NCBI RefSeq assembly: GCF_029168335.1
Contig: NZ_JARGYC010000017.1
Coordinates: 1 to 64,000 of the forward strand
Source of the DNA: Psychromarinibacter sediminicola
Lineage (GTDB): Bacteria > Pseudomonadota > Alphaproteobacteria > Rhodobacterales > Rhodobacteraceae
DNA: 64,000 nucleotides
Direction of reading: 5' to 3'
Shown here: positions 42,252 to 52,293 of the stretch, in pieces
Layout of the letters: every line of letters starts with the position of its first letter
How positions within the stretch are numbered: position 1 is the stretch's first letter
Position numbers and translations under genes: made by a program
Notes under the pieces: model-generated
Seen by the model: the letters and a program-made list of their open reading frames with translations, nothing else
Databases searched by the model: none
What the model was told of the DNA's origin: nothing

Positions 42252-42331
42252 GTCAAAATCTTCTAGAAGATTTTGACTTTGCAGGATTTTCCAGAAAATC
42301 CTGATGCGCACGATCTTCTAGAAGATCGTGC
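42252..42331. repeat. Array of three palindromes
   Basis: Three inverted repeats in 80 bp: a perfect 26-bp palindrome 42252-42277 (half-site GTCAAAATCTTCT), a 22-bp hairpin 42282-42303 (CAGGATTTTC around CA), and a perfect 24-bp palindrome 42308-42331 (half-site GCACGATCTTCT). All share a TTC-NN-GAA centre. They lie between recR and the DUF2252 gene and resemble the array at 48742-48834. Confidence 0.9.
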
Positions 42332-46907: not shown

Positions 46908-48680
46908 TCAGTCCTCCTCGAACGGATCCCACTCGTCCTCGACCTCGGGCAGCGCCTCTGCCTCGGCCTCGGCGGCGACCTCCTCGGGGGTGCGGATCTC
47001 GGTGATCTTCGCGCTGGGAAAGGCATCGAACACCGCCCGGACCAATGGGTGCTGGCGCGCCTGGTCCTCCAGCTTCAGCCGGTCGGCGTCGCGCTCTTCG
47101 GCGATCGTCGCGCCGCCGCCCTCGTTGACGACGGTCACGGCCCAGCGCACGCCGGTCCAGCCCTGCAGACGGCCGGCCAGGCGCGCGGCAAGGTCGGCGG
47201 GCGCGTCCTCCGTCGGCACGAACTCGATCCGGCCGGGCTGATAGCGGGCCAGGCGCAGGGTCGTCTCCACCTCGACCAGCAGCTTCACGTCGCGGTTGGC
47301 GCGGATCAGCTCGACCACCTGGTCGAACCGCGCGAACCGGGCCAGCGCCTGCGACGCATCCAGCGCCTGCGCCGTCGCCGCGCCCGAGGCGGTGCCGCCC
47401 GAGCGCATCCGCGCGGCATGGCAGGACACCGCCGAGGCGCCGGGGCTCGCCCCGCCGCCCGGGCCGGCCGGCGGCGCCGGCGCGGCGGGCGGCGGCGTGT
47501 CCTGCAGCTTGCGGATCAGGTCCTCGGGCGGCGGCAGGTCGGCGACATGGGTCAGCCGGATCACCGCCATCTCGGCGGCCATCATCGCGTTCGGCGCCTG
47601 CGCCACCTCGTCCAGCGCCTTCAGCAGCATCTGCCACATCCGCGTCAGCGCCCGCATCGGCAGCTGCTCGGACATCGCCAGGCCGCGGGCGCGCTCGTCC
47701 GGGCCGATGGTCGGGTCGTCGGCGGCCTCGGGGGTGATCTTGATGACGCTCAGCCAGTGGGTGATCTCGGCCAGGTCGCGCAGCACCGCCAGCGGGTCCG
47801 CCCCGTCGGCATATTGCCCTGCCAGCTCGGTCAGCGCGCCGGCCGCGTCGCCCGACATGATCATGTCGAACAGGTCCATCACCCGGCCCCGGTCGGCGAG
47901 CCCCAGCATGGCGCGCACCTGTTCGGCCGTGGTCTCGCCCGCGCCATGGCTCAGCGCCTGGTCCAGCAGCGATTCCGCGTCGCGCGCCGAGCCCTCGGCG
48001 GCGCGGGTGATCAGCGCCAGCGCCTCGTCGGTGATCTCGCCGCCCTCGGCATCCGCGATCCGGCGCAGCAGCGCGATCATCACCTCCGGCTCGATCCGCC
48101 GCAGGTCGAACCGCTGGCAGCGCGACAGGACGGTGACGGGCACCTTGCGGATCTCGGTCGTGGCGAAGATGAACTTCACATGGGCCGGCGGTTCCTCCAG
48201 CGTCTTCAGCAGCGCGTTGAACGCGCTGGTCGACAGCATGTGGACCTCGTCTATGATGTAGATCTTGTAGCGCGCGCTGGCCGCCCGGTAATGCACGCTG
48301 TCGATGATCTCGCGCACGTCGTTGACGCCGGTATTCGACGCCGCGTCCATCTCGTAGACGTCCACGTGCCGGCCCTGCGAAATCGCCAGGCAATGCTCGC
48401 ACCGCCCGCAGGGCTCCGTCGTCGGCCCGCCCGCGCCGTCGGCGCCGATGCAGTTCAGGCCCTTGGCGATGATCCGCGCCGTGGTCGTCTTGCCGGTGCC
48501 GCGGATGCCGGTGAGGATGAAGGCCTGCGCGATGCGGTCGGCCTTGAAGGCGTTCTTCAGGGTGCGCACCATCGCGTCCTGGCCGACGAGATCGGCGAAG
48601 GTCTCGGGCCGGTACTTGCGGGCCAGCACCTGGTAGGCGGCTTTGTCTTCGGTCATCGCGGGATCGGCGGAATCGGGCAT
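46908..48680 (-). CDS. dnaX: DNA polymerase III subunits gamma/tau
   Basis: This is the clamp-loader ATPase of the replisome. The 590-residue product has VLARKYRPETFADLVGQD at 18-35, Walker A GIRGTGKTT at 58-66, zinc-binding Cys77, 91, 94 and 97, DEVHML at 144-149 and the SRC sensor motif VLSRCQRFDL. Beyond 370 come the tau-specific domains, joined by a glycine-, alanine-rich linker. I see no A-rich slippery site in the linker, so a frameshifted gamma form as in E. coli is not evident. The start is uncertain: Met9 is an alternative, and neither has a good site. Confidence 0.95.
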   Translation of the reverse strand: MPDSADPAMTEDKAAYQVLARKYRPETFADLVGQDAMVRTLKNAFKADRIAQAFILTGIRGTGKTTTARIIAKGLNCIGADGAGGPTTEPCGRCEHCLAISQGRHVDVYEMDAASNTGVNDVREIIDSVHYRAASARYKIYIIDEVHMLSTSAFNALLKTLEEPPAHVKFIFATTEIRKVPVTVLSRCQRFDLRRIEPEVMIALLRRIADAEGGEITDEALALITRAAEGSARDAESLLDQALSHGAGETTAEQVRAMLGLADRGRVMDLFDMIMSGDAAGALTELAGQYADGADPLAVLRDLAEITHWLSVIKITPEAADDPTIGPDERARGLAMSEQLPMRALTRMWQMLLKALDEVAQAPNAMMAAEMAVIRLTHVADLPPPEDLIRKLQDTPPPAAPAPPAGPGGGASPGASAVSCHAARMRSGGTASGAATAQALDASQALARFARFDQVVELIRANRDVKLLVEVETTLRLARYQPGRIEFVPTEDAPADLAARLAGRLQGWTGVRWAVTVVNEGGGATIAEERDADRLKLEDQARQHPLVRAVFDAFPSAKITEIRTPEEVAAEAEAEALPEVEDEWDPFEED

Positions 48681-49016
48681 GGGCGGAGAGTAGAGCATCC
48701 GCCGGTCGGCCCCAAGCCGGATGTCGGGGCAGGGCGGCGCGCAAGGCCGTTCGAACGGCCTTGGCCACGCGGTTGCGCAACCGCGTGCAAGCGCCTTGAA
48801 AGGCGCTTGCGCCAAGGCGCTTCGAAGCGCCTTGCGCCCCGGGTCCGGTGTGAAGCTATGGACGCGGGCGCCCCCGAGGGCTACTCTGCCCCTGCCGATC
48901 AGAGGCGGCATCCGGGTCCGCGGAAAGCTGTAGCAGCACCTCGCACGACAGACCGACCACATTTCGGTTGAACTCATGCCCGACCAGCGGACCGACGGGC
49001 GACGAGAGGGATACCG
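48681..49016. other. 336-bp divergent gap between dnaX and the ankyrin gene
   Basis: The gap should hold the dnaX promoter and that of the ankyrin gene. Its centre is occupied by the palindrome array 48742-48834. After it, TGAAGC and AT-containing sequence near 48850-48970 are candidates for promoter elements, but no clean pair stands out. GAGAGGG at 49004-49010 is the ribosome binding site of the rightward gene. Confidence 0.5.
48742..48834. repeat. Tandem array of four ~22-bp palindromes
   Basis: Four inverted repeats in 93 bp: 48742-48763 (half-site CAAGGCCGTTC, perfect), 48766-48787 (CACGCGGTTGC, perfect), 48787-48810 (GCAAGCGCCTT around GA) and 48813-48834 (CAAGGCGCTTC, perfect). Half-sites differ, so this is not a simple repeat or CRISPR. 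Two of the four have a TTCGAA centre. Each could form a cruciform in DNA or a hairpin in RNA. Confidence 0.92.
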
Positions 49017-50546
49017 ATGACCCAATCCACCGAGAGACTCCGTCGCGCGGCCAAGGCGCTGCGCAAGGCATTTGCCGCCGGCAACCCGGACGCCGTCGCC
49101 CGCGTGCGCGCCGTCCTGCCCGACGCGGACGAGCTGAAGCACACGGGCGCGCTGCACGTGATCGCCCGCGAGGACGGCCATGCCAGCTGGCCGCGGCTCA
49201 AGTTCGCCCACGAGATGGCCGCGATGGCCCGCGACGAGAAGGTGCGACGGCTGGAGATCGCGCTGCATTTCGGCCAGCACTGGGTCGTCGAGGCGCTGCT
49301 GACCGAGACCCCGGATCTCGGCCGCGACGATCTCGGCCTCGCCTGCGCGCTCTACGACATCGACCACGTGCGCAGCATACTGGCCCGTGACCCCGAGGCG
49401 GCGACCCGCGCCATCCGTAACCGCCGCCCCCTCCTGCACCTCGCCTTCTCGCAGCACCTGCACGCCGGCGGCGACCGCAGCGCGATGATGCAGATCGCCG
49501 AGGCGCTGCTGGCCGCCGGGGCCGACGTCAACGACAGCTACCCGTATCAGGGCGATCCGAACGTACCGCTCTCGGCGCTCTACGGCGCGCTCGGCCACGC
49601 CCACAACCTGCAGCTCGCCGAATGGCTGCTGGACCACGGCGCCGACCCGAACGACGGCGAATCCCTCTACCACGCGACAGAGCTCGGCCAGACCGAGGGC
49701 CTGCGCCTGCTTCTGTCCCACGGTGCGCGCCCCGAGGGCACCAACGCCCTGCCGCGCGCGCTCGACAGCAACGACCACGCCATGGTCCGCCTGCTGCTCA
49801 CCGCCGGCGCCGACCCGAACGAGGGCATCGCGCTGCCGCCGTCCGGCGAGGCGCCCTTCGTCATCCCGGCCCTGCCGCAGGCCGCGCGGCGCCTGTGCGA
49901 CGGCGCGATGATCGACCTGCTGCTGGAGGCCGGCGCCGACCCGTCGGAACGCTGGCAAGGCATCTCCCCCTATGCCATGGCCCGCGTCTACGGCAACGCC
50001 GCCGCCGCGCGCCGCATCGCCGAGGTCGGCGGCGACACCGCGCTGACCCCGGCCGAGGCGCTGCTCGCGGCCGCGGCGGACGACACCGTGCCCGAGGGGC
50101 AGTTCGTGGACCCGCGCAGGCTGCCCGAGGAGTTCCGCACCCTGCCGCGCAGCCTGATGCAGCTTCCCGACCGCCTGCCACATATCCGCCGCCTGATCGC
50201 GCTGGGGCTGGAGCCCGACCGCCCCGACGCGATGGACCTGACGCCGGTGCAGGTCGCCGGGTGGGAGGGGCTGCCCGACGCGATGGCCTTCTTCCTGTCG
50301 CTCGGCCCCGACCTCGACCACGTCAACGGCTATGGCGGCGATCTGCTGTCCACCGTCGTCCACGGCTCGGAGAACTGCCCCGCCCGGGCCGAGCGCGACC
50401 ACGTCGCCTGCGCGCGCCTGGCGCTGGAGGCCGGCCGCCCCCTGCCGCGCCGCGTCATCGACTTCGCGGGCGATCCGGACATGGCCGGTTTCCTCGCCGA
50501 CTGGGCCGAGGCGCATCCCGACAGGGTGGACGAGGCCGACCGCTAA
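49017..50546 (+). CDS. Ankyrin-repeat protein
   Basis: The 509-residue product contains a series of ankyrin-like repeats between about 75 and 350, with hallmark ends such as AEALLAAGADVNDSYPYQG, AEWLLDHGADPNDGESLYHA, RLLLTAGADPNEGIALPPSG and DLLLEAGADPSERWQGISPY. Further weaker repeats follow to about 480. There is no signal peptide or membrane segment. Ankyrin arrays bind proteins; no enzymatic domain is seen. The first 60 residues (LRRAAKALRKAFAAGNPDAV) look like an ankyrin cap. GAGAGGG precedes the ATG. Confidence 0.85.
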   Translation: MTQSTERLRRAAKALRKAFAAGNPDAVARVRAVLPDADELKHTGALHVIAREDGHASWPRLKFAHEMAAMARDEKVRRLEIALHFGQHWVVEALLTETPDLGRDDLGLACALYDIDHVRSILARDPEAATRAIRNRRPLLHLAFSQHLHAGGDRSAMMQIAEALLAAGADVNDSYPYQGDPNVPLSALYGALGHAHNLQLAEWLLDHGADPNDGESLYHATELGQTEGLRLLLSHGARPEGTNALPRALDSNDHAMVRLLLTAGADPNEGIALPPSGEAPFVIPALPQAARRLCDGAMIDLLLEAGADPSERWQGISPYAMARVYGNAAAARRIAEVGGDTALTPAEALLAAAADDTVPEGQFVDPRRLPEEFRTLPRSLMQLPDRLPHIRRLIALGLEPDRPDAMDLTPVQVAGWEGLPDAMAFFLSLGPDLDHVNGYGGDLLSTVVHGSENCPARAERDHVACARLALEAGRPLPRRVIDFAGDPDMAGFLADWAEAHPDRVDEADR

Positions 50547-52078: not shown

Positions 52079-52198
52079 TGTCTTGAGTCCTTCGAACGGA
52101 AAAGGGGCGCGAAACCGCCGGGGTCTCGCGTCGAAGCGCGCAGGACGCGCTAAGCCTTATTGGACGACAAGCTCCATGAAGCCTTCCGTTCGATAGGG

Positions 52199-52293
52199 TG
52201 AGAGGTTGGACAACGACCCAAGCGGGGCTCGTTACGGCTGCTTCCTTCCGGACCTGACCGGGTTGGCGAGGCGCTTGCCCGCGCCAACCTCTC
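52199..52293 (-). ncRNA. ffs: Signal recognition particle RNA, small bacterial type (4.5S)
   Basis: On the minus strand the universal SRP core is present: GGTCAGGTCCGGAAGGAAGC followed by AGCC, with the GGAA tetraloop. The ends GAGAGGTTGG (from 52293) and CCAACCTCTC (ending 52200) pair to close a single long hairpin of about 95 bases. This RNA binds Ffh and targets inner-membrane proteins. It sits between rsgA and cpdB, near dnaX as often in bacteria. Confidence 0.95.

Follow-up and report, generated by a model that had tools for sequence, protein, structure and literature searches.

The locus beside dnaX in Psychromarinibacter sediminicola raises the question of what four different palindromes in tandem are, and whether they serve the neighbouring genes. 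In the stretch of DNA analyzed here (the window, 64,000 nucleotides), dnaX, encoding the gamma/tau subunit of DNA polymerase III, lies on the minus strand (46908..48680), and a divergent ankyrin-repeat protein gene lies on the plus strand (49017..50546); their start codons are 61 and 182 bp from the array, respectively. The array spans about 93 bp (48742..48834, minus strand) and comprises palindromes P1 (48742..48763, CAAGGCCGTTCGAACGGCCTTG), P2 (48766..48787, CACGCGGTTGCGCAACCGCGTG), P3 (48788..48809, CAAGCGCCTTGAAAGGCGCTTG), and P4 (48813..48834, CAAGGCGCTTCGAAGCGCCTTG). P1, P2, and P4 are perfect over 22 bp, and P3 pairs at 10 of 11 positions, its mismatch being confined to the central pair and its length reaching 24 bp with the flanking G/C. 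The four tandem palindromes reported in the first-pass annotation were thereby confirmed, with spacers of 2, 0, and 3 bp instead of the 0-2 bp given there.

The claim that such a run exceeds chance held as well. At the GC content of the window, chance would yield about 0.06 perfect 22-bp palindromes in 64 kb. A 457-kb sample of the host genome, which includes the window itself and is not wholly independent of the finding, contained seven runs of at least three palindromes, and three third-order Markov controls contained none. A chance origin of the array was ruled out by these controls and by the genome-wide counts given below.

All four palindromes share one frame, CA(A/C)G-N4-TT(CG/GC)AA-N4-C(T/G)TG. 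Based on pattern searches and sampled stretches, the frame CAMGNNNNTTNNAANNNNCKTG occurs in the host genome as 46 palindromes in about 25 arrays, compared with none for the reversed control pattern. The 22-mer of P4 is found unchanged at three further places in this genome, and 20 places match it with up to three mismatches. Full copies contain four palindromes in a recurring order, A-B-C-D, which the dnaX copy follows in reverse: P1 occupies position D (core GCCG), P2 position C (CACGC-type inner palindrome), P3 position B (CAAGCG-type inner palindrome, core CGCC), and P4 position A (core GCGC). Order and spacers (2-3, 0-2, and 3 bp) recur in the host, Tropicibacter, Roseovarius, Marivita, and others, and pairs of palindromes 71-72 bp apart, corresponding to the distance between P1 and P4, were located at C88, C239, C248, and C274. 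Copies are 80-85% similar to one another, and the match is essentially confined to the array. The array beside dnaX represents a single copy of a composite, non-coding element, about 93 bp long, that is dispersed in the genome. Comparable arrays exist elsewhere in the genome, the lack of which would have counted against the original reading. Its statement that the palindromes are not copies of one unit stood in part: the half-sites do differ, but they follow a common frame and form the four parts of a repeated element.

The array RNA folds far better than shuffled sequences on both strands (z of -5.5 and -6.3), with an alternative predicted fold in which P1 pairs with P4 around two inner hairpins. 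This strong predicted folding would suit a small RNA gene or a structured leader specific to dnaX. However, the same element is present at approximately 25 unrelated loci and is absent at dnaX in three congeners (G001, G003, and G004), in which the corresponding stretch measures 39-82 bp, compared with 165-177 in the window; a fourth congener (G002) matches the dnaX side only and is hence uninformative on the array. In addition, no Rfam 15 covariance model matched the array above its gathering score. A dnaX-specific RNA is thus highly improbable, and was rejected in view of the dispersal of the element and its absence beside dnaX in congeners. The sole Rfam match in the window was a bacterial small SRP RNA (52197-52293, minus strand, 58.9 bits).

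Across 386 palindromes in 157 arrays, core positions 5-8 were 98-99% complementary, compared with 32-43% when the arms were dealt at random, yet 56 different cores were present; therefore, the symmetry is conserved and the sequence is not. Because the search patterns partly dictated the constant frame positions, these are no evidence on their own, while the N4 core and the centre are unbiased in this respect. Among 29 distinct host palindromes, 99.3% of cells were paired versus 77.9% in shuffles, changes on both sides affected 60 cells versus 21, and sliding the partner arm abolished the pairing signal. These values bear on the possibility that the array provides operators to a protein that binds DNA as a dimer, such as a nucleoid protein, gyrase, or a regulator; the invariant ends (CAAG) and centre (TTCGAA) and the regular spacing of 22-25 bp could be protein contacts. 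A sequence-specific dimer needs no complementarity between arms, yet the variable cores retain it, and arrays avoid divergent promoter gaps. The binding array considered in the first-pass annotation is thus improbable. Intermediates with G-U pairs were scarce and half-changed palindromes few. The scarcity of G-U pairs agrees with a constraint at the DNA level no less well than with selection acting on RNA, and the symmetry may be maintained there through selection for cruciform shape or copying between arms.

Comparison of Rhodosalinus halophilus with Rhodosalinus sediminis showed an array at the same locus in six of seven loci, one of the six being partial, and no array in R. halophilus at locus L145, in loci that differ by 10-20% nearby. 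Stem-pair changes, counted by eye from the alignments, included five compensated on both sides (one each at L150/L215, L221/L231, and L222/L233, and two at L219/L232) and one uncompensated, one-sided change (L219/L232). The two-base centre of the palindromes, part of the predicted loop, frequently differs between these orthologues. The symmetry, whose conservation in relatives the earlier reading had proposed to compare with that of the sequence, is largely kept in the two species examined locus by locus. Such compensated changes at orthologous loci offer a clean natural test between selection on RNA, selection on DNA shape, and arm-to-arm copying. Presence and absence at orthologous loci, a pattern used to recognize MITE-type elements, was found at dnaX and L145; a target-site duplication was not resolved at these empty sites, where the flanks are too diverged to show one.

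Gene neighbourhoods were defined using a simple gene caller trained on the known genes of the host genome. Arrays are intergenic, with only 1 of 157 located inside a predicted gene, and they lie at a median of 19.5 bp from a stop codon. The 135 arrays placed in gaps comprised 50 in convergent, 76 in tandem, and 9 in divergent gaps, and the 615 background gaps, drawn from the same loci and host stretches and not species-matched to the arrays, comprised 80, 339, and 196, respectively. The convergent-to-divergent ratio of 50:9 thus contrasts with 80:196 in the background (Fisher, 1.6e-15). A barrier between two divergent genes, as previously suggested for this locus, is not the typical role of the element, since divergent sites are depleted (9/135 vs 196/615) and arrays usually follow stop codons. 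The dnaX copy is atypical in its placement between divergent genes, and therefore does not itself fit a role at 3' ends.

Each palindrome alone is predicted to form a hairpin (9-bp stem, 4-nt loop) of about -14 kcal/mol, and the predicted DNA fold of the array consists of four separate hairpins. The dispersal of the element, folding better than that of shuffles, and symmetry kept while the sequence varies support the earlier suggestion of a repeat that could fold into a chain of hairpins. Like intrinsic terminators, these putative hairpins stand just behind stop codons, and their enrichment between convergent genes would agree with bidirectional transcription terminators that operate as hairpins without a T-run. 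Unlike intrinsic terminators, the dnaX array has no T-run, several hairpins follow in tandem, and arrays coexist with T-tail terminators; no terminator-like site (GC hairpin plus T-run) was found at 48500-49200. Moreover, many arrays occupy tandem gaps, and both genes that flank the dnaX copy start downstream of it. T-tail terminators were detected in 26% of array-bearing and 11% of other convergent gaps, that is, at least as often beside arrays as elsewhere. Therefore, arrays do not simply replace ordinary terminators, a replacement that is unsupported by these counts, and protection or attenuation at 3' ends is more likely. Overall, we regard bidirectional terminators as an unlikely explanation.

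A scan of GTDB identified double palindromes in at least 111 stretches, and among the matches listed, the named carriers were almost all Rhodobacteraceae. Of 149 genera sampled evenly across the family, 11 carried double palindromes. Single frame palindromes numbered 46 in the host, 0, 0, 0, and 1 in four congeners, 67 in Pseudoponticoccus, 135 in Tropicibacter alexandrii, and 65 and 34 in two Rhodosalinus genomes. This patchy distribution is as expected of a spreading element; differential loss may also have produced it. No DNA similar to the array was found in the phage and plasmid collections, and carriage by phages or plasmids was ruled out on this basis. Of two viral-contig matches, one corresponded to the R. 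halophilus locus L221 and the other to an AT-rich, chance-like repeat. The L221-like array and flanks are carried by a 15-kb IMG/VR 'viral' contig (L188), which is probably chromosomal or the edge of a provirus. An array is also present in a record titled Enemella evansiae, an actinobacterium (L095, JAFKDC010000025.1), which appears to be mistitled or a mixed assembly.

The distribution also bears on a purely selfish, non-autonomous element, which would be spread by a putative hairpin-recognizing recombinase, survive at 3' ends because other insertions are harmful, and keep its symmetry through template-switch correction between the arms instead of selection for a function. The patchy occurrence among genera and congeners, the empty orthologous loci, and the small number of half-changed palindromes are consistent with this explanation, whereas the same-locus arrays retained in two Rhodosalinus species despite the divergence nearby suggest retention, and no mobilizing gene was identified, RAYT being absent. 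A purely selfish nature is possible but doubtful.

Bru-RS of Brucella and RIME of rhizobia are mosaic palindromic elements, intergenic and non-coding, with sizes near 100 bp. The element described here is likewise intergenic, palindromic, and non-coding, a likeness in description that offers a lead. It also resembles REP/BIME elements (RAYT/TnpA-REP; PMC2817692, PMC8266576) in its short intergenic palindromes, which form composite clusters near gene ends, in a symmetry that survives changes of letters, and in its patchiness between species; dispersed and clustered intergenic palindromes, by which REP/BIME elements are recognized, were found here. Unlike REP/BIME, it lacks a GTAG (or related) foot tag and has symmetric CAAG...CTTG ends, and its palindromes are perfect to the centre, with four different ones in fixed order. 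The GTAG- and CGTC-tagged superfamilies (PMC3733652) share with it the dispersal of palindromes of 20-40 bp, but neither tag occurs in the 22-bp frame of the element, and that paper makes no mention of Rhodobacter, Roseobacter, Ruegeria, Silicibacter, or Paracoccus. The Y1 transposase (RAYT, PF01797), to which the search for a parent transposon was limited, is absent from the four carrier genomes tested (the host G000, G006, G009, and G029). A RAYT-driven REP was ruled out by this absence, and we do not claim membership in the RAYT-REP group. The exact letters of six palindromes had no match, and word searches returned no description of the element, in a literature search outside which many subscription papers lie. 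The element represents an additional class of REP-like repeats, present in Rhodobacteraceae without the transposase usually blamed for the spread of REP. A broader proposal is a mobile-element class defined by shape, in which ordered, perfect palindromes of fixed length with free cores would be copied as a unit by a non-RAYT, hairpin-recognizing enzyme and corrected from arm to arm; we consider this speculative and rather unlikely.

Taken together, the element is best interpreted as RAYT-independent and REP/BIME-like, with a probable role as hairpins at the 3' ends of mRNAs. It consists of up to four ordered 22-bp palindromes, in which the length, the ends (CAAG...CTTG), and the centre (TTCGAA or TTGCAA) are kept and the inner four base pairs vary freely provided that both arms match. 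It would spread through the genome as a unit and persist chiefly a short way past stop codons; there, transcripts of either strand could fold into a row of hairpins with the stem and loop sizes predicted above. The most likely role of these hairpins would be to define or protect the 3' ends of mRNAs and to impede read-through where genes converge. At dnaX, where the copy is an atypical insertion, a weak effect or none would be expected; a weak one could come from a leader hairpin, should transcription of dnaX begin upstream of the array.

Additional palindrome families were noticed. An array of a second family, with three palindromes centred on TTCTAGAA / TTCCAGAA, lies 11 bp past the stop codon of recR in the window (42252..42331). 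Its pattern was found at 96 places in the host genome with up to two mismatches (control, 0) and, with up to one mismatch, at 26 and 11 places in two of the four congeners. All eight arrays of this family (8/8) lie within 0-32 bp of a stop codon. A third dispersed motif consists of the palindromes GGGCATTTCG-CGAAATGCCC and GGCGATTGC-GCAATCGCC, which are 8 bp apart, occur in both orientations, and are flanked by CTCTC/GAGAG, with sites at L025 (3858-3910), L049 (29-80), and L052 (5818-5869).
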